Of a stretch of 34,791 nucleotides of DNA, positions 504 through 10,539 are shown in pieces. The stretch is from Candidatus Aminicenantota bacterium. GTDB lineage: Bacteria > Acidobacteriota > Aminicenantia > Aminicenantales > Aminicenantaceae. Under the pieces are notes generated by a model. It was not told the origin of the DNA. It made no database searches and worked only from the letters and a program-made list of their open reading frames with translations. The stretch covers positions 1-34,791 of the forward strand of contig JACUUK010000006.1 of the NCBI GenBank assembly GCA_014859315.1. Reading direction: 5' to 3'. Made by a program: the position numbers and the translations under genes. Position 1 is the stretch's first letter. Every line of letters begins with the position of its first letter.

Positions 504-746
504 TTATCTCTTTTTAATATTTAACTCAATCCCTGCATCCTCTAATGCTTTATGAAGAGGCCACTTTTTAAAAGCTAAATAAAATATGGCAATTATCGCA
601 ATAGGATATAAAAGCATAACAACGCTGTACCAACCCGGAAAGCCTGCCTTATAAAAAATCTTCCAAAAAGGAAACACCACGAAAACTAATGAAAATAACA
701 ATAAAATTAATAATTCGCTTATACCCAATGTTCCAAACATAGTCAT
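504..746 (-). CDS. Small membrane protein, 80 aa, about two TM segments, unknown function
   Basis: ORF track; hydrophobic segments; same strand as and downstream of the RiPP operon. Confidence 0.6.
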   Translation of the reverse strand: MTMFGTLGISELLILLLFSLVFVVFPFWKIFYKAGFPGWYSVVMLLYPIAIIAIFYLAFKKWPLHKALEDAGIELNIKKR

Positions 747-798: not shown

Positions 799-957
799 CT
801 AATTATTGAACCATTTCCAAGGTTTGAATCTTAGGTTTAAAAGTCTCTGGGGCCGGTGGTCTGTATCCCACCAAAGGACTGTGCTGCAAGCACATTGCTC
901 GTTGCATACTATTTTTTCTAAAATTTGAGGTGATGAAAGTGCAATTGGACTCAGCAT
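799..957 (-). CDS. Divergent/orphan RiPP precursor-like peptide, 52 aa (MLSPIALSSPQILEKIVCNEQCACSTVLWWDTDHRPQ...)
   Basis: N-terminus matches the leader of the 9406-9543 precursor (MLNPVGFSSHQILEK); strong SD gaggagg upstream of ATG; the -1 frame downstream reads GYRPPAPE, reminiscent of the GYPPAE tail. Confidence 0.6.
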   Translation of the reverse strand: MLSPIALSSPQILEKIVCNEQCACSTVLWWDTDHRPQRLLNLRFKPWKWFNN

Positions 958-994: not shown

Positions 995-1993
995 TTACTC
1001 TCCTTTAGGGGAGGTAACACTACACACATGGAATATAAAATTAAGATCACACAATAATAATCTCTGATAATTATCAAATGATAAAGAAATAGTTAAATAT
1101 GGAAGTTTTGATATTTGCTTTTGGTTAAGTTTTTTGTCCAATATTATCATATAATTGCCTTCTTTAAGAGCATCTTGAATTGAACCATGAGCAGGAACCT
1201 GAGGAGCAGTAATTATATATACATCGTTTCCATTACAGGCAATATCAAGAAAGACTGAGGTTACCTGATATCCTCCGCCTTTGGTTTCTTGAGGGCGAAC
1301 GGTAAAAGGCAAATCAGCTTCGATCTCTTTTATTAAATTGCCTTTAAAGTCGTATCTTTGTATCCGATTCGCATATCTAATGCAAACATAGAAATTTCCT
1401 TCCGCATCCATACACATTTTTACAGCATCATTAAAAAGCGTAAGCTCTTTTTCCTTTAGGGCACCAAAGGATCTTATCAAATTTCCTTTCAAGTCATATT
1501 CATGGATAAGCCTGCCTTCAATATCCGGATAAGCTATAAATATTTTGTTATCAGGAGCACAAATTAAGTCGCTTACTTTGCCTTTTATTTTAAAACTCGA
1601 CATAAAGTTTCCTTCTAAATCATAAACATTTACTCTCAAAAGTTCATCATCAGCTACTAAAACATACTTTTGATCATAAATTACACCTGCAACTATCGAA
1701 GCTAATTCTCCTGGACCTTGTCCTTTTTTTCCTATTGTCCTAATGAATTTCCCATCTTTGTTAAATACCTGTATCCTAAAATTTCCTTTATCGAGAAGAT
1801 AATAGTTGTTTTTCGAATCTATAAAGCTGCCTATTAAGTTAAAAAACATCTGATTTGCATCTGCCTCATCTGCTCCAATAGCAATCTGCTCTTTTAGAGA
1901 AATAGCCTGAACTTTACTTTTACCAATCGAAAGGTTCATACTGCAAGATACTATTATAAATCCCATAACTAAAAATTTTATTTTTTTTCTCAT
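995..1993 (-). CDS. Exported 6-bladed beta-propeller (NHL/BF3164-like) protein
   Basis: Signal peptide MRKKIKFLVMGFIIVSCSM; repeated FNKDGKFIRTIGKKGQGPGEL / YDLKGNLIRSFG / YDFKGNLIKEI blade motifs. Confidence 0.75.
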   Translation of the reverse strand: MRKKIKFLVMGFIIVSCSMNLSIGKSKVQAISLKEQIAIGADEADANQMFFNLIGSFIDSKNNYYLLDKGNFRIQVFNKDGKFIRTIGKKGQGPGELASIVAGVIYDQKYVLVADDELLRVNVYDLEGNFMSSFKIKGKVSDLICAPDNKIFIAYPDIEGRLIHEYDLKGNLIRSFGALKEKELTLFNDAVKMCMDAEGNFYVCIRYANRIQRYDFKGNLIKEIEADLPFTVRPQETKGGGYQVTSVFLDIACNGNDVYIITAPQVPAHGSIQDALKEGNYMIILDKKLNQKQISKLPYLTISLSFDNYQRLLLCDLNFIFHVCSVTSPKGE

Positions 1994-2054: not shown

Positions 2055-3554
2055 TTAAATTCCAATTTTCAGTATGTGATAATTTGTCTTTGATATAAAG
2101 TGAGTTAATATTAGACCCATTTCTGTTATAGACTTCTCGCTAAGATCAGAGCTGGCAAAAGCTATATGAGTTGCATCCACTCCAATTTGTTGAAATGCGG
2201 GATCTACATCAATCCATTCCTTACACCACACTTGAACCCACATATGATAAGCAAAATATTTGCCATCATATACTACCCCGCCTACTACTCTAGAAGGAAT
2301 CCCAAGAGCCCTAGCTAATGAAGCAAATAATACTGCATATTCTGTGCAATCTCCTGATTTTAATGATAAAATTTCTTTAGGTCGAGCCAGTCCAATTTTA
2401 ATGTTTTTTTCAAGATTCAACGATAAACATTCAAAAACAAAAGCATTGATTTTTCGTAGAATTCTTAATAAGTTTTTTTCATTTTTTACAATTTTATTGG
2501 CTAGGCTCTTAATTTCGCTGTCATTTGATTGTGTGTATACGGTATGTTTTAAATATCTTTCTTCTTTATTGTTTAACTCAGAAATAGAGTAGGGAAACAA
2601 ATTGGCCTGAGAGTATTCTTTTGACTTTATACTTAAAATAATAAAATTATTTCCTACTTCAATTATTCTTTGAATGGAAGAAGAAGATTTCAATTCTTTT
2701 TTTAACTCAACTATATTTTCATTTTCAATTTTTATTTCTAATTCTTTAATGTATCGGGGATTATATGTGATATTCTCTGATATTGGCACACTATATGAAA
2801 GATCTGCAACTTCAGGGATTTGAATTTCGTGTAATAATGCAACAAGAATTTTTTCCATTTTCATAGAGGGATAAATCACTTTGTATGTTGTTCCATTTCT
2901 GTTGAGCCAGGCATAAAATTTAATTTTCATATTTGGATAATAATATGTTCCTTCAACCTTAAATAGCTTGTATATTTTTTTATTGATGACTTTATTGTCT
3001 AAAGATTTAACATCAATAAACAAATCGATTATCGTTTCAAGAGAAGGCTCAAAGACTTTAAGATTATACTTAGAACCTATTTTTAGGCCCTCCCTCTTCA
3101 TCTGATTTTCTACATAACTTGGAAATAAAAATAGCTCTCTTGTTTCGATTTTTTTTAAACTATCATCATCTTTTTTTAATAATATAAATCCATTTTTCAC
3201 CCTTCCTGAAGTTTCAATTTCATCTTGATATCCGTGTATTCTTTTGCTACTGAAAAAAATTGGTTTTCCCGTTAAGCTTTCTATAAATAAATAGGATTCA
3301 TACATTTTTGAAATGTCTTCTTTTTTTCGGATAGAAGTTACTATTTCCCTTTTTGTCTTAATAACTTTTTTAAATCTAAAATAGCTAGAAAAATTGTCTA
3401 CTTTTTCTTCTCCAATTTTAAATCCATTAAGAAGAATCGCATATTTTCGCGATGAGATGGGGCTTTTTCCATATTTTTCAATCAGAAAATTTAAAGACAT
3501 GAAAGTCGCGCTTAATAAAATAATAATGGACAATAAAATTTTCCTGTATCTCAT
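2055..3554 (-). CDS. Transglutaminase-like (papain-fold) domain protein with N-terminal signal anchor
   Basis: C-terminal LKSGDCTEYAVLFASLARALGIPSRVVGG...YHMWVQVWCKEWIDVDPAF: Cys-His-Asp triad of the transglutaminase core. Confidence 0.85.
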   Translation of the reverse strand: MRYRKILLSIIILLSATFMSLNFLIEKYGKSPISSRKYAILLNGFKIGEEKVDNFSSYFRFKKVIKTKREIVTSIRKKEDISKMYESYLFIESLTGKPIFFSSKRIHGYQDEIETSGRVKNGFILLKKDDDSLKKIETRELFLFPSYVENQMKREGLKIGSKYNLKVFEPSLETIIDLFIDVKSLDNKVINKKIYKLFKVEGTYYYPNMKIKFYAWLNRNGTTYKVIYPSMKMEKILVALLHEIQIPEVADLSYSVPISENITYNPRYIKELEIKIENENIVELKKELKSSSSIQRIIEVGNNFIILSIKSKEYSQANLFPYSISELNNKEERYLKHTVYTQSNDSEIKSLANKIVKNEKNLLRILRKINAFVFECLSLNLEKNIKIGLARPKEILSLKSGDCTEYAVLFASLARALGIPSRVVGGVVYDGKYFAYHMWVQVWCKEWIDVDPAFQQIGVDATHIAFASSDLSEKSITEMGLILTHFISKTNYHILKIGI

Positions 3555-3562
3555 ATTGCTAT

Positions 3563-5374
3563 TTACCCATCAATTTTATGATAACCTGAAAATTGTTCGT
3601 CAAATAGCTTTGCATAAGTGCCATTTTTTTTGTATAACTCATCGTGATTCCCTACTTCAATTAATTTCCCCTTTTCTAAGACAAAAATTCTATCAGCATT
3701 TAAAACAGTAGTCAACCTATGAGCAATTACAAAGGTTGTTCTTCCTTGTACAATAGAATCAATAGCTTTTTTAAGTAAATTCTCTGTTTCATAATCTAAA
3801 TTGGATGTCGCCTCGTCAAAAATTAATATTTTTGGATCCTTCAATAATACTCTTGCCATTGATATTAGCTGCTTTTGACCTCCGGATAATTTTGTTCCTA
3901 AAACTCCAACATTAGTACTATAATCTATCGACAATCTCTTGATAATATCATCAACACCAGTTGCTTTAGCTGCAAAGAAAACCTCTTCATCTGTTGCATC
4001 CATTTTAGAAAACTTAATATTATCCAAGATTGTCCCTTCAAACAAGAAAGCATCCTGAGGAACATAACCTACAACTTTTCTTAACTGGACTTTTGGAATC
4101 TGTTTAATATCGAGGTTATCAATAAATATCCTCCCTTTTAAAGGATCATAAAATCGAGGGATTAAATTAACTAGCGATGTTTTTCCGGCACCACTTCTTC
4201 CAACAATGGCTATTAATTCTCCCCTTTCAACATTAAAGTTAATATTTTCGAGAATTTTGTCTTTACTGTTATAAGAGAAGGACACATTTTGAAATGAAAC
4301 TAAACCTTTTATGTCCACCGGTTTTTCTTTAATTTCATCCACTTCAAATTCGGGAGAGTGATTTAAAATTTCAAAGATCCTCGATATCGCGGCAGCTGAT
4401 CTTTGAAACTGGGCATTTATTCCTATCAGACTTGAAAGAGGACTATAAAGATATGCTAAAAAAGCATTAAAGGCGATTAATTTTCCAATAGTTAAATGAC
4501 CATTTATTATTTCCAAAATACCATACCAAAGTACTATTAAACTTCCTAAACCTCCAACAAGTGAGCTGAAAGAGCTATTTACCGAATTTAAAATGGACAT
4601 TTTTATGTTATCGCGCAAGTTCTTTTCCAAAATTTTCTCAAATTTGGAAATAATTTCTTTTTCCTTAGCAAATATTTTTATAACAAAAACTCCTAAAAAA
4701 CTTTCTCCGAGTAAACGGCCTATTTGGGCAGCATTTTCTTGGATTACTGGTGAATGCTTTCTTATTTTAAACCCGGTAAGATTGCTGCCAAAAATATAAA
4801 AAGGAAGCACAATTATTGAAATAAGCGCAAGTTTCCAATGAATATAAAACAAAGCTGAGACTCCGATTACAAAAGTCAAAATATTAGAAGCAATTGTTAG
4901 TAAATTATCGGCAAATACTCCCTGCGTCGCACTCGTGTCATTTGTTAATCTCGATAAAATATATCCAGAATCATAAGTTTTAAAAAATGATACAGGAAGA
5001 GATAGAATATGATTGAAAAAAGATAATCTCATGTTAAGTAATAGCTTTTCTCTGAATTTAGCTAGAATGTATCTATTAAATATGAAAACAATAACATTCA
5101 GAATTAGCAATGCTAATATAATGGAGGCAACAATAAAGACGAGGTACTTGTTTTTTTGGGGAAGAGCATGGTCAATCATATATTGAGAAAGGAAAGGTCC
5201 AGGGATCTGGAGCAATGATACAAGTAATATTCCCCCTCCTCCAACAAGAACTAATGACCATTTAGGTTTAAAAACTTTAAAAAAAGACTTAACTAATTCC
5301 AAGTCAAATTTCATATTTTTTTTGATACTGATTGGACCATTTGTATTATTTAAATAATTTAGTTTTTTCATCAT
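3563..5374 (-). CDS. ABC exporter, fused TMD-NBD, no N-terminal C39 peptidase domain
   Basis: Walker A GRSGAGKT, signature LSGGQKQ, Walker B ILIFDEATS, H-loop IAHRLTTV; six-TM N-terminal half. Confidence 0.9.
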   Translation of the reverse strand: MMKKLNYLNNTNGPISIKKNMKFDLELVKSFFKVFKPKWSLVLVGGGGILLVSLLQIPGPFLSQYMIDHALPQKNKYLVFIVASIILALLILNVIVFIFNRYILAKFREKLLLNMRLSFFNHILSLPVSFFKTYDSGYILSRLTNDTSATQGVFADNLLTIASNILTFVIGVSALFYIHWKLALISIIVLPFYIFGSNLTGFKIRKHSPVIQENAAQIGRLLGESFLGVFVIKIFAKEKEIISKFEKILEKNLRDNIKMSILNSVNSSFSSLVGGLGSLIVLWYGILEIINGHLTIGKLIAFNAFLAYLYSPLSSLIGINAQFQRSAAAISRIFEILNHSPEFEVDEIKEKPVDIKGLVSFQNVSFSYNSKDKILENINFNVERGELIAIVGRSGAGKTSLVNLIPRFYDPLKGRIFIDNLDIKQIPKVQLRKVVGYVPQDAFLFEGTILDNIKFSKMDATDEEVFFAAKATGVDDIIKRLSIDYSTNVGVLGTKLSGGQKQLISMARVLLKDPKILIFDEATSNLDYETENLLKKAIDSIVQGRTTFVIAHRLTTVLNADRIFVLEKGKLIEVGNHDELYKKNGTYAKLFDEQFSGYHKIDG

Positions 5375-5389
5375 GATTCAGTATCTTTT

Positions 5390-6790
5390 CTAAATAGTAC
5401 GATCAGGATTTATAATGTTGAAATTAGAATCTTCTAAATATTTTTTCATATGGGATAAAGGAATTTGTGAAGAGGTCCACATTCTTTCGATTTGTTCTTG
5501 TTTTAAATATTTACAATAAAAATTATTGTTTGAATAGAAGTCACCATAAATATTGTAATTCATACTTAAACATCCGCCTCCACATAAATATTTGAAATCG
5601 CACTTATTACAAACTTCTATTTCGTTGACATTAAATTCGCGTAACCTTTTCAAAATTTCTGATTCTTTTAATATTCTTTCAAGGTTCTGTACCATTAAAT
5701 TCCCACATCTCATTTCTGGTTTATGCAAAGTATGACAGGGATATACAAATCCTTCAGGCCCCACGCTAATTTCTCCATTTGCTATTCCACAGCTAAATCT
5801 TATATTTGGATATTTGACTGCAATGCCTGGCTTATCTTTAAAATATTTTCTAATATTATCCTGTTCTTTTATTAAACTTTTCATATCAGGCAGAAATCTT
5901 TTATAAAACTTGGGGTCATTCGTACCAGGAGCATACAAAGCAGGCGTATAATGAGAGCAATCGAGTTCCTCTATAACCCATCGCCATGTATTTAAGACAG
6001 TATTGACATTGACGTTAGTAATCACAGAATTAATTCTAATTCTTGCATTATAGGCTTTTAGAAGCCCTACACTTCGGATAATTTTCTCAAACGTGTTCTT
6101 GCCCCTCATATGTTCATGTAATTTCTTGTTCACTGAATCAAGGCTAATGGTAATGATATTAAAGCTTTCACTAATCTTTTCTGCGTTAGCCTTATTAATT
6201 AAGAGGCCGTTTGTAATCAATTCTGATTCTAATCCCTTTTTTACAATATAATCCCCGAGTCTCAAAGTATGATGATTCAGTAAAGGTTCACCCCCTGTAA
6301 AAACGAATTTCTTCACCCCTAAATTCCCTGCTTCATCAACGAGTCTCAGGTAATCTTTGTAAGTCAGATACTTATATTTGTATTTATCAAATTCTGTTCT
6401 ATCTTCAATGTTATAGCAATATTTACATCTTAAATTGCATTTGTAAGTCATTAACAAATAAATCTCACTTGGAACTTCCTGGAAAAAATGACGTATTGGG
6501 CGCATCTTATATTGGCCTTTATGCAAAAAGCCGACTGAAACTAAATTATTGGTGAATAATTGAACTTTATCCTGCACTTCTTCTTTCGATTGCTGCGTGT
6601 ATTCTTTTGCTAAAATAGGAATTATGGAATCAATATTTTTAAATTCCTTTATCAATTCTACAATTTTTACTCCATCTTTATTAAGCCTGATCCATATGAC
6701 ATTAACAGGGTCATACAGGAGATACCAGCCATCACGGGAAAACGTGTAGTATTTTTCAGGAGCTAACACTATTCCGTTTTCATTTATCAT
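5390..6790 (-). CDS. Radical SAM/SPASM peptide maturase with N-terminal PqqD/RRE-like domain (copy 2)
   Basis: CNLRCKYC rSAM motif; C-terminal SPASM Cys cluster CHTLHKPEMRCGN...CNKCDFKYLCGGGC; start placed at internal ATG 6790 preceded by aaagga (track gives 6808). Confidence 0.9.
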   Translation of the reverse strand: MINENGIVLAPEKYYTFSRDGWYLLYDPVNVIWIRLNKDGVKIVELIKEFKNIDSIIPILAKEYTQQSKEEVQDKVQLFTNNLVSVGFLHKGQYKMRPIRHFFQEVPSEIYLLMTYKCNLRCKYCYNIEDRTEFDKYKYKYLTYKDYLRLVDEAGNLGVKKFVFTGGEPLLNHHTLRLGDYIVKKGLESELITNGLLINKANAEKISESFNIITISLDSVNKKLHEHMRGKNTFEKIIRSVGLLKAYNARIRINSVITNVNVNTVLNTWRWVIEELDCSHYTPALYAPGTNDPKFYKRFLPDMKSLIKEQDNIRKYFKDKPGIAVKYPNIRFSCGIANGEISVGPEGFVYPCHTLHKPEMRCGNLMVQNLERILKESEILKRLREFNVNEIEVCNKCDFKYLCGGGCLSMNYNIYGDFYSNNNFYCKYLKQEQIERMWTSSQIPLSHMKKYLEDSNFNIINPDRTI

Positions 6791-6828
6791 TTGATAATCC
6801 TTTCTCATTTATAAAAATGAATTTTAGA

Positions 6829-8202
6829 TTAAAAACATTCTGGAACATATTCTTCATTGTTTATCTCTGATTGAGATTCATCTTTACTTGAAATGACAGC
6901 GCTTTCAAACATAGAGTTAATTATTATTTCTTTATTAAACTTGCAAAATAACGGAAAAGTCTTCTTCAGGTCTTTAAATATCCCATATTGAATGGCCCGG
7001 CAACCTCCTCCACATAAATATCTGAAATCACAATCAGAACATAATTCATATTTATCTACTGAAAGGGCTCGAATTTCTTTGAACACGGCAGAATCTTCCA
7101 ATATTTTGCTTAACGATTCTCTCCTGACATTGCCTCCACAGAATTCCTCTTTTAAAAGAGACTGACATGGAAATACTTTCCCATCCGCTCCTACGGCCAG
7201 TTCTCCAGAACACATTCCACAGTTATTTCGCAGACCAATGTTACGATAAACTCCCATTGTTTTATTTATTTCATTTCTGATTGTCCCGTATTTTCCTGAA
7301 AGATCTTTCAGCTCTTTATTCTCGTTTGAAAAGTAATCAGAATTGTTCTGATTATGCGGGATGAAAAATTGGGGAAGAAATGAATTGCATCCCAATTTTC
7401 TTATAAAGAAATCCCTTGAATCTAATAAGCTGTCAATATTTCCCTTGTGGGCCACTCCTAAGCATGAGACATTCCCTTGAAATGATTTTAAAATTATTAT
7501 TCCATTTATCACTCTCTTATAAGTGCCTTTTCCTCGCATTTGATCATTTTCCGCTTCTTTATAGCTATCTATACTGACAGATATATGGTCAAAAAGCTCA
7601 ACAATTTTCTTTGCATTTGATGGAGTGATTAATGTTCCGTTTGTGATTAAAGAGTTATGAAAGCCAAAATCCTTTGAAAATTTGGCAATGGAAAAAATAT
7701 CTTTTCTTAAAAGTGGCTCTCCCCCCGTAAATACAAGATTTCTAATTCCTATTTCTTTCACTTCTGTTAGTAATTTTTTGTATTCCTCAAATGTTAGTTC
7801 ATCGTAAAAACCTTCAGCTGAATATTTCTCTCTGTCATCTAAATTATAACAGTAATAACAATTCAAATTGCATCTATAAGTTGGATGAATATAGAGAGAA
7901 GATGGATATAAAGCTTTTCCAAAATTAAATTCTCTTACTTTGTAGCTATCAATATGAAGATAATTTGCATTTATAAGATATTCTATGAATTTGATGATTG
8001 TCTCTTCTTTTGCTTTAAACCTTTTCTTAAGACTGTTTATTACATCTTGAAGAAGCGAAAATCTTTCTATTGTTAATATAATTTCTTTTCCGGCCTCGTT
8101 AACTTTAATCCACCTGACATTTACTGGATCATAGAATAGATACCAGTCATTTTTTTTAAAATTCTTTCTTTTTGAAGGTGCAATTATTTTCTTGTCCAGC
8201 AA
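6829..8202 (-). CDS. Radical SAM/SPASM peptide maturase with N-terminal PqqD/RRE-like domain (copy 1)
   Basis: CNLNCYYC motif; SPASM CQSLLKEEFCGGN...CSDCDFRYLCGGGC; TTG start at 8202 with aaaaggg SD proposed because the track start (8304) overlaps a precursor gene and aligns poorly with copy 2. Confidence 0.85.
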   Translation of the reverse strand: MLDKKIIAPSKRKNFKKNDWYLFYDPVNVRWIKVNEAGKEIILTIERFSLLQDVINSLKKRFKAKEETIIKFIEYLINANYLHIDSYKVREFNFGKALYPSSLYIHPTYRCNLNCYYCYNLDDREKYSAEGFYDELTFEEYKKLLTEVKEIGIRNLVFTGGEPLLRKDIFSIAKFSKDFGFHNSLITNGTLITPSNAKKIVELFDHISVSIDSYKEAENDQMRGKGTYKRVINGIIILKSFQGNVSCLGVAHKGNIDSLLDSRDFFIRKLGCNSFLPQFFIPHNQNNSDYFSNENKELKDLSGKYGTIRNEINKTMGVYRNIGLRNNCGMCSGELAVGADGKVFPCQSLLKEEFCGGNVRRESLSKILEDSAVFKEIRALSVDKYELCSDCDFRYLCGGGCRAIQYGIFKDLKKTFPLFCKFNKEIIINSMFESAVISSKDESQSEINNEEYVPECF

Positions 8203-8261
8203 TTTTTTAACCCTTTTAAAAGTAAAAATGAGTATTCGAGGAGCACGGGCTTGGTTTTTTG

Positions 8262-8399
8262 CTATTCTTGAGGTGGATACCCTTTGCCACCTAACCATCC
8301 ACATTCACAGTCTCCTATTCCTGATCCTGCTAACAGTCCGCAAGAACACCCGTTCTTATCAATTATTTGATTAGGGAGAAAAACAATTGGGTTTAGCAT
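8262..8399 (-). CDS. RiPP precursor peptide I, 45 aa: MLNPIVFLPNQIIDKNGCSCGLLAGSGIGDCECGWLGGKGYPPQE
   Basis: Hand translation; SD aaggagga; CxCG repeats shared with neighbours. Confidence 0.85.
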   Translation of the reverse strand: MLNPIVFLPNQIIDKNGCSCGLLAGSGIGDCECGWLGGKGYPPQE

Positions 8400-8459
8400 C
8401 TTCATTCCTCCTTTTTTGTGAAAATATTTCCTCTAATAGTCTTCATTTGTGTCTTTGAC

Positions 8460-8591
8460 TTAAAGAGGATGTCCTCCCCCAATTAAAAACCCACACTTGC
8501 AGTCATTAAATCCTTCTCCGATCAGGATTCCACATCCGCATGCCCTACCACACATTAATTGTTCTGGAAGAAATGCCACAGGTTCTAACAT
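8460..8591 (-). CDS. RiPP precursor peptide II, 43 aa: MLEPVAFLPEQLMCGRACGCGILIGEGFNDCKCGFLIGGGHPL
   Basis: Hand translation; SD aaggagc; shared leader and CxCG core. Confidence 0.85.
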   Translation of the reverse strand: MLEPVAFLPEQLMCGRACGCGILIGEGFNDCKCGFLIGGGHPL

Positions 8592-8626
8592 TGTTTTAGC
8601 TCCTTTCAATTTGAATTAGTGGATTA

Positions 8627-8764
8627 TCATTCGGCGGGATATCCCGAGCCTTCTATAAATCCACATTTACATTCACCTGTTCCTCCTCCCCAAAGTAGCC
8701 CACACTTGCACTTTTTCATTTCTTCGAGAATATTATTGGGCACATAAACAATCGGATTTATCAT
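8627..8764 (-). CDS. RiPP precursor peptide III, 45 aa: MINPIVYVPNNILEEMKKCKCGLLWGGGTGECKCGFIEGSGYPAE
   Basis: Hand translation; SD aaggaga; shared leader and CxCG core. Confidence 0.85.
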   Translation of the reverse strand: MINPIVYVPNNILEEMKKCKCGLLWGGGTGECKCGFIEGSGYPAE

Positions 8765-8832
8765 TTTTACTCTCCTTTTAATTTTTTTAATTTAATGAAT
8801 TTTTTCTTACAATCCCTAATCAACGCTCAAAA

Positions 8833-8967
8833 CTACAGAGGATGCCCTCCCCCTATTAAAAATCCGCACTTGCAGTCATTAAATCCTTCTCCGATCAGGA
8901 TTCCACATCCACATGCTCCAGCAAGACCCATTGACTGTAATGGCAAAAAACCAACTGGATAGAACAT
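8833..8967 (-). CDS. RiPP precursor peptide IV, 44 aa: MFYPVGFLPLQSMGLAGACGCGILIGEGFNDCKCGFLIGGGHPL
   Basis: Hand translation; SD aaggaggt; last 27 aa identical to precursor II. Confidence 0.85.
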   Translation of the reverse strand: MFYPVGFLPLQSMGLAGACGCGILIGEGFNDCKCGFLIGGGHPL

Positions 8968-8999
8968 TGCTCTACCTCCTTAAAACAATGAGAGGATCA

Positions 9000-9140
9000 T
9001 TATTCTTTGGGGGGCGGCAATCCAGCGCCGTGGAACAATCCGCAGTCACATTTACCTGTTCCTGCTCCAGTAAACCATCCGCAGGCACATTCTTCCATTT
9101 TTTCGAGTGCCTGATGAAAGAAAGCAATTGGATTTAACAT
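9000..9140 (-). CDS. RiPP precursor peptide V, 46 aa: MLNPIAFFHQALEKMEECACGWFTGAGTGKCDCGLFHGAGLPPPKE
   Basis: Hand translation; SD aaggaggg; shared leader and CxCG core. Confidence 0.85.
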   Translation of the reverse strand: MLNPIAFFHQALEKMEECACGWFTGAGTGKCDCGLFHGAGLPPPKE

Positions 9141-9297
9141 TTTTTTCCCTCCTTTCTTATTGTTCTTATTGTGTTATTGGCCCGACTCTTATGAATCCGG
9201 GCGCATGGTCATTCCAACTCACTCTAATGAGTGATGTCCTAACCTAGTCAAACAAATTACGACCTCCGAATTCTTCCCCTCTTTAAATCCCGCATTT

Positions 9298-9393
9298 TCA
9301 TTCCTCAGCTCCTGAGCCAGTAAAGTAGTCGCACTCACATTTGTGAATGAAGTTCTCAATTTGTTTTGGAACAAGAACAATAGGCTTTAACAT
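9298..9393 (-). pseudogene. Truncated RiPP precursor VI, 31 aa: MLKPIVLVPKQIENFIHKCECDYFTGSGAEE*
   Basis: Leader and first CxC retained; TGA falls where siblings have the first Cys of the second CxCG (GAG GAA TGA AAA TGC GGG); weak SD taggga. Confidence 0.65.
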
Positions 9394-9405
9394 TTTATTC
9401 CCTAT

Positions 9406-9543
9406 TTACTCCGCAGGTGGATATCCACCGCCATGGAACCAACCACAAATACACATGCCATATCCTTCGCCAGTAGTTAAAAAGCAGAAGCATCCCTCTT
9501 TTTCCAAGATTTGATGCGATGAAAACCCAACAGGATTTAACAT
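9406..9543 (-). CDS. RiPP precursor peptide VII, 45 aa: MLNPVGFSSHQILEKEGCFCFLTTGEGYGMCICGWFHGGGYPPAE
   Basis: Hand translation; SD aaggaga; shared leader and CxC core. Confidence 0.85.
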   Translation of the reverse strand: MLNPVGFSSHQILEKEGCFCFLTTGEGYGMCICGWFHGGGYPPAE

Positions 9544-9654
9544 TTTTTTTCTCCTTATATGGATTGTATCTGTTCAAAACTAGTTAACATATTGATATTT
9601 AAATAGATATCTGGAATATTTGATATTCTTTACCTCCCCTAAGTATAAGTAATA

Positions 9655-10539
9655 ATGAAAAGACAACTCAGTTTTGTCGATTGGATCATCTCCCGGAATA
9701 TCTCCGAGGATGACCCCTTGAAGAAGATTTTCTCCTCCATCGATTTCTCTTTCATCAGAACCATTATCCCAGAAGCTTCCTTGGGAAGAGAAGGGTTTGA
9801 CCCTGTTAGCCTCTTTAAAGCTTTGCTTTTGATTCCCCTTGGAGAAGACCATTCCCAGAGACACCTTGCCCGAAAACTGCGGTTCGACGGACGTCTGAGC
9901 TATCTTTGCGGATTCTCCTACGGTAAAACCCCTTCTCATAACACTTTCACTGTCTTTAAAAAAAGAGTGGGTGAGAAAAGATTCAGAGAGATTCTGGAAA
10001 CCCTCGCCGCCCAGGCTCTCGCTGATGCCGCCTATGATAGCCTGGCCAATATCTCCTTTTCTGAGAAAGAGAAGATTCAACCCTTTATCGCTTGTAATCC
10101 CAGAAACTCTAAAAACTCCACCTTGCTCTCTCATCTGACCATTACTCCCGAAGGAGAGGTGTTCTGCCCAGCAGGGAAACAACTTATCTACTGGGGCAAA
10201 GAGAAAAGACGAGAAAGGATGAAATTTCGCTGCCCTCTTAACAGAGAGAAAGGCGACTGTCTCTTCAAAAACAGCTGCTGGAAGGGAAAATATGGAAAGT
10301 CTTTCTATATCAGTACCCATCACCGTCTCTCTGAGAAGATGAAGCTTTTTAGAGCCACTAAAAGATTCAAAAAGATCTACAAGAAGCGCCAGGCTATCGA
10401 AAGATTCTTCTCTTTGCTTAAAGAAAGTTTCTCCCTGGATAAAAAAATGAGAGTCAGGGGCGCTGAGAGAGTTCGCATATACGTCTACCTTGTCCTCTCT
10501 GCTTATGTTGTCTCCCTCTCCACTCATGGATTTGGCTAA
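9655..10539 (+). mobile_element. IS1182/IS5-superfamily (DUF772-type) DDE transposase, probably internally deleted
   Basis: N-terminal IDFSFIRTIIPE...FDPVSLFKALLL...FKKRVGEKRF and C-terminal RQAIERFFSLLKE present; central region with the expected first catalytic Asp appears missing at ETLAAQALADAAYDS. Confidence 0.75.

Follow-up and report, generated by a model that had tools for sequence, protein, structure and literature searches.

The sequence analysed here (the window) comprises 34,791 nucleotides from Candidatus Aminicenantota bacterium (GCA_014859315.1, contig JACUUK010000006.1, positions 1 to 34,791, forward strand). Six intact precursor genes (I-V and VII) and one pseudogene (VI) lie on the minus strand between 8262 and 9543. 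The order along this strand is VII, VI (broken), V, IV, III, II and I (9543 to 8262), followed by the genes of two radical-SAM enzymes (rSAM1 and rSAM2), an ABC exporter, a transglutaminase-fold protein, a propeller protein and an orphan ORF (8199 to 799).

9406-9543, minus strand: precursor VII, class A, MLNPVGFSSHQILEKEGCFCFLTTGEGYGMCICGWFHGGGYPPAE; two CxC-x4-GxG modules
9298-9393 (decayed stretch 9274-9393), minus strand: precursor VI, pseudogene; 31 aa, truncated, in-frame TGA with TAA downstream
9000-9140, minus strand: precursor V, class A
8833-8967, minus strand: precursor IV, class B
8627-8764, minus strand: precursor III, class A
8460-8591, minus strand: precursor II, class B; 27-aa C-terminus identical to that of IV
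8262-8399, minus strand: precursor I, class A; homology and ribosome-binding site place the start at 8399, in-frame ATG at 8405
6829-8199, minus strand: rSAM1; RRE-like N-terminus, radical SAM core, SPASM; start inferred from orthologues
5390-6808, minus strand: rSAM2; PqqD-like RRE, radical SAM core, SPASM
3563-5374, minus strand: ABC exporter, fused permease/ATPase
2055-3554, minus strand: exported transglutaminase-fold protein; conserved C403-H437-D451
995-1993, minus strand: 6-bladed beta-propeller (DUF5128/NHL) with signal-like N-terminus
799-957, minus strand: orphan leader-type ORF VIII, MLSPIALSSPQILEK...; strong ribosome-binding site, core without the two modules

The ABC exporter was searched for a C39 peptidase domain, and none was found; the transglutaminase-fold protein is a candidate leader or processing peptidase. 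ORF VIII is an eighth leader-like ORF at the far end of the operon. Its leader closely resembles that of VII (MLSPIALSSPQILEK versus MLNPVGFSSHQILEK), and its C-terminus (CNEQCACSTVLWWDTD...) is unlike that of precursor VII; it is either a decayed copy or a leader fused to a new core. Beyond it, a small membrane protein of 78 aa is encoded at 504-740 (minus strand). At the other end, an IS1182-type transposase gene (9655-10539, plus strand) lies directly upstream of the precursor array on the opposite strand, and clear inverted ends were not found for it. Its insertion may have displaced the promoter or regulator that the array had before.

The intact precursors are 43-46 aa long, each is preceded by a GGAG-type ribosome-binding site, and all share a short leader with the consensus M[LIF]xP[VILM]xF. 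When four loci were scanned for the leader motif plus ribosome-binding site, only the listed precursors and their counterparts were returned. A profile of the array recovered four independent homologues in another genome (E 1e-12 to 1e-17), so the array does not consist of chance ORFs. The alternating order V-IV-III-II-I, corresponding to A-B-A-B-A, was described in a first-pass annotation of this DNA and was confirmed. The same holds for its report that II and IV have a common 27-aa C-terminus behind leaders that differ at the protein level (MLEPVAFLPEQLMCGR versus MFYPVGFLPLQSMGLAG): the two genes differ at 6 of 81 nucleotides in this stretch, and all differences are silent. The class descriptions needed small corrections. 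The GxG linker, given as a mark of class A, is not class-specific because II and IV have GEG at that place, and the tail of precursor V (LPPPKE) has one Pro more than the pattern proposed for class A. The real differences between A and B are the third Gly (GxGxG versus GEGFND) and the tail ([YL]P..E versus HPL). The class B pair II/IV clustered in 100% of NJ bootstraps; judged from these comparisons, class B is a private, recent and local pair of the window locus. Precursor VI is a decayed class-A-like gene, where TGA replaces the first Cys codon of the second CxC. Reading of this TGA as selenocysteine was rejected, since TAA follows five codons later.

Related loci were sought in the phylum, sampled twice (396 genomes each), in the window's own class (143 genomes) and in the class that contains locus L013 (94 genomes). 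The rSAM pair was present in three genomes of this survey: the window genome, G111 (locus L013, JAADGL010000016.1) and G524 (locus L036). L013, from another acidobacterial class, matches the window locus in all five genes and in their order, with identities of 44% (rSAM1), 48% (rSAM2), 52% (ABC), 28% (transglutaminase-fold) and 35% (propeller). Its four precursors are all different and have class-A-like linkers with longer acidic or polar tails. No class B peptide was found among the four, and ORF VIII has no counterpart there. L036 lies at a contig start and shows one precursor, then rSAM1, rSAM2 and the beginning of the ABC gene. Its contig begins about 520 bases before the precursor, so further peptides could lie upstream; within the visible part of the locus no class B-type partner was found. 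Natural loci hold between one and six intact precursors. A fourth locus, L033 (G467, 8660-10350), has one rSAM with an ABC exporter and a propeller nearby. Its precursor (MFQPVAFGAPGTPGPGGSCGCGCGCENGSGGGGGGGTGGGNDGRP) has a leader of the type found in the window locus, starting MFQPVAF, and four Cys in one cluster (SCGCGCGCENGSGGGG), spaced so that every second residue is Cys, with a run of Gly after them. The L033 product would differ from the two-module peptides while sharing their leader type. The rSAM of G338 (28% identity) was excluded, as its precursor type is different. One scan of genome contigs returned the L013 contig as the only close relative, and a plasmid search with rSAM1 gave no match. 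The cassette is rare and patchy, being found in 3 genomes and absent from the other sampled members of the window genome's family and order, which suggests that it was acquired by horizontal transfer.

A feature overlooked in the first-pass annotation is that every intact core repeats itself internally with a period of 13. The three two-enzyme loci together have 11 peptides, and each shows the pattern [CxC-x4-GxG]-x3-[CxC-x4-GxG]. Nine columns are invariant in the alignment of these peptides, namely P4 in the leader and C18, C20, G25, G27, C31, C33, G38 and G40 in the core. The first set of four core residues recurs exactly 13 positions further on as the second set, or one position later than that in L036. 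In cores shuffled at constant composition, two modules appeared with per-peptide frequencies between 0.0001 and 0.004. The idea that modules 1 and 2 of one peptide co-vary was dropped (p=0.07; 0.14 without IV).

The two enzymes of the window are 34% identical. The longest ORF of rSAM1 (491 aa, 6829-8304, minus strand) overlaps precursor I, and homology indicates a TTG near 8199 as the start, a point on which automatic annotation may thus err; the first ~35 codons of the 491-aa ORF are probably not coding. Pfam Radical_SAM and SPASM matches were obtained for both enzymes. The marks of sactipeptide maturases, a CX3CX2C core with the SPASM Cys set and an N-terminal RRE, were found as follows. CX3CX2C and the seven SPASM Cys (all 3+7) are present in rSAM1 and rSAM2 of the three loci. 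PqqD/RRE matches were above the cutoff for window rSAM2 and L013 rSAM1 and weak for window rSAM1 (E 0.11), and the N-termini of rSAM1 and rSAM2 align with an hhalign probability of 99.6%. In the tree of the paralogues from three loci, rSAM1 and rSAM2 formed two clades with 100/99 support each, which indicates separate, old lineages whose split predates the divergence of the loci. The L033 enzyme branched outside the rSAM1+rSAM2 group (94/93). Only the rSAM1 clade has an extra Cys326 (CGMC) and a Cys350 shifted by one place (FCGG instead of CGN), both near the first auxiliary cluster; the L033 enzyme has the rSAM2 form at these sites. Because of the 34% identity and the differences near the auxiliary cluster, one of the two enzymes could catalyze a different reaction or play a helper role. 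An AlphaFold model of rSAM1 had low confidence (mean pLDDT 55). Viperin matches in PADLOC reflect the shared radical SAM core only.

Among NCBIfam models, StsB was by far the best match of the four enzymes tested (E 4e-49 to 6e-58). The scores against NF045574 were 175.2 and 176.4 for the window and 167.7 and 196.9 for L013, far below the cutoff of 625. For the precursor model NF045558, the best score was 14.9 (V), below the cutoff of 42, and most peptides gave no match. With enzymes and peptides both below the curated cutoffs, the locus was not filed under the streptosactin family.

The array had been proposed to result from duplication of an A+B unit, and silent sites and spacer alignment, although comprising a small number of sites, give this moderate support, with the V-IV pair as the one copied into III-II. 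If so, III should be the A gene nearest to V at silent sites, about as near as II to IV. The lowest dS values of all gene pairs were those of III-V (0.78) and II-IV (0.60), and the remaining A-A pairs ranged from 1.2 to saturated. III and V use the same codon at 16 of their 21 shared residues; for the remaining A-A pairs the figure is 59 of 119 (Fisher p=0.02). The spacers before IV and II (32-35 bases; V-IV versus III-II) align, with p=0.004 before correction for 15 spacer pairs, and those after IV and II (IV-III versus II-I) showed no alignment. II and IV are 373 bases apart, and the II-III and IV-V steps are both 173 bases. A duplicated B-A unit (IV-III copied into II-I) was rejected: besides the spacers, the silent sites of I and III are no closer than those of other A-A pairs (12/24 identical codons). 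The six silent differences speak against a recent gene conversion of the II/IV core. Since the copying, the core of II-IV has had no amino-acid change despite 6 silent ones, and that of III-V has had many (Fisher p=0.0015). We read this pattern as constraint on class B and not as proof of positive selection on class A; no positive selection was shown in the A cores, with dN < dS in every pair. Because the B core has stayed unchanged in protein while the A cores diverged, class B may have a role of its own in the Candidatus Aminicenantota organism.

The genes, their synteny and orthology, the internal repeat and the silent-site pattern were observed directly. Taken together, they point, with a probability of about 0.7, to a ruminococcin-C-like double-hairpin cassette of the sactipeptide type of RiPP, with multiple products and with both rSAMs acting on every precursor. 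For the thioether chemistry, ring topology, joint enzyme action, processing and biological role, we infer the following. Both radical-SAM/SPASM enzymes would bind the leader via their N-terminal RRE, and rSAM1 and rSAM2 would jointly cross-link every precursor. The predicted substrate is the core, in which a spacer of 3 residues lies between two 10-residue modules, C-x-C-x4-G-x-G. Within each module, both Cys would most likely be bonded to alpha-carbons located at the two Gly or close to them, so that each peptide would form two small hairpins as ruminococcin C does; an internal repeat made of two 2-Cys modules is consistent with such a double hairpin. As Gly lacks a beta-carbon, any Gly acceptor would have to be bonded through its alpha-carbon, which is the bond of sactipeptides. 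The conserved Gly may also be turn residues only. The ABC protein would export the product, and the transglutaminase-fold protein may cut off the leader. The number of precursors would grow by local duplication, with V-IV copied to III-II, VI decayed, B held fixed and the A cores diversified.

How the two enzymes share this work allows a special case of the double-hairpin reading, in which the enzymes divide the two CxC-x4-GxG hairpins of each precursor between them, one being closed by rSAM1 and one by rSAM2. We regard this as possible, though the smaller part of the probability falls to it. Two modules accompany two enzymes in 11/11 peptides, and the four Cys of L033 form a single cluster beside a single rSAM that lies outside the rSAM1+rSAM2 group (94/93) and resembles rSAM2 where the rSAM1 clade has its specific Cys326 and shifted Cys350. 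However, the one-enzyme comparison comes from one locus, a single enzyme forms both hairpins of ruminococcin C (PMC8188230, PMC6779426), and the thuricin CD enzymes act as one complex (PMC12093266). From the one case of L033, the comparison suggests a joint origin of the two modules and the two enzymes. We consider it rather unlikely that an ancestral system with one enzyme and one cluster was the starting point, and that joint duplication of module and maturase left each rSAM with a hairpin of its own to close in one and the same peptide.

An arrangement of two CxC pairs flanked by Gly, four Cys in all, is also a metal-site pattern. The peptides could accordingly be metallothionein-like, metal-binding thiol peptides, with the rSAMs installing some other modification, and to our knowledge the transglutaminase-fold and propeller neighbours are not typical sactipeptide genes. 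We consider this improbable, as the maturases with RRE and SPASM are closest to a sactipeptide maturase, the Gly pairs are invariant at fixed spacing and an export system is present.

The first-pass annotation had offered two further readings of the two classes and had named homologous loci with one class beside both enzymes as evidence against its proposals; L013 is such a locus, and so, as far as it is visible, is L036. A two-component product of A and B, in the style of thuricin CD, would fit the alternating gene order and a B core that is frozen while A diversifies. However, A/B pairs were sought in the homologous loci and none was found in L013 or in the visible part of L036: the pair of different precursors has not been kept with the two rSAMs, L013 has four different A-like peptides, and the window itself has four divergent intact A copies rather than one partner. 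Such a product is therefore quite doubtful. One enzyme per class, with rSAM1 and rSAM2 each modifying A or B, would match the two peptide types and two paralogues of the window and is the mode of many two-component lanthipeptides (PMC12093266), but it is very improbable, because the two enzymes are kept together at loci without B (L013 with four class-A-like peptides, L036 with one visible peptide) and their split is older than class B.

Two maturases are found in many radical-SAM peptide clusters, for reasons that are still debated: the two form one complex in thuricin CD, and each modifies precursors in ruminococcin C. The present cassette offers a clean test of this question, because it combines exact double-repeat substrates, old and distinct enzymes, one to six intact precursors per locus and a one-enzyme relative. 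It would also extend sactipeptide-like clusters to Acidobacteriota, where none was described in the open-access papers searched. In addition, it is an example of selection apparently fixing one core (class B) beside diversifying neighbours.

Among known systems, streptosactin (GggA/GggB; StsA/StsB in NCBIfam) shares a short Gly-rich precursor and the best NCBIfam enzyme match with the window locus, and its Gly34 is a thioether acceptor in one of two rings (PMC8172795). It differs in having one enzyme, four-residue rings (C25-S28, C31-G34) and a streptococcal context with protease and regulator; its models score 168-197 against a cutoff of 625 for the window and L013 enzymes and 14.9 against 42 for the peptides. 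Thuricin Z/huazacin (ThzC/ThzD) also combines two distant rSAMs with duplicated precursor genes, and both enzymes form identical bridges (PMC8172795). Its precursors, however, are identical and form a single nested hairpin. Thuricin CD (TrnC/TrnD) likewise has two diverged rSAMs and more than one precursor, but a defined alpha/beta pair and a hairpin with three nested bridges. It was once generally believed that each peptide of this system had its own enzyme; this was later disproved, TrnC and TrnD forming one complex that acts on both precursors (PMC12093266); equal caution applies to the window locus.

In ruminococcin C (RumC, Ruminococcus gnavus), five small precursor genes are accompanied by two RRE-bearing SPASM rSAMs, and the peptide has four Cys and two hairpin domains, an arrangement like that of the window locus (PMC6779426). 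The first hairpin opens with CxC and links Cys22/Cys24 to residues 31/35, so that an acceptor lies 9 residues past the first Cys, which equals the offset between G27 and C18 in the window peptides (PMC6779426). RumMC1 and RumMC2 are highly homologous and each modifies precursors, whereas rSAM1 and rSAM2 are 34% identical and separately conserved. The RumC acceptors are Ala, Glu, Asn, Arg and Lys, compared with the Gly proposed here, and its hairpins are not an exact repeat, as the window modules are. This likeness is drawn from published descriptions, no RumC-specific model being among the scan matches. By analogy, ruminococcin C is the system that the window locus would work most like.
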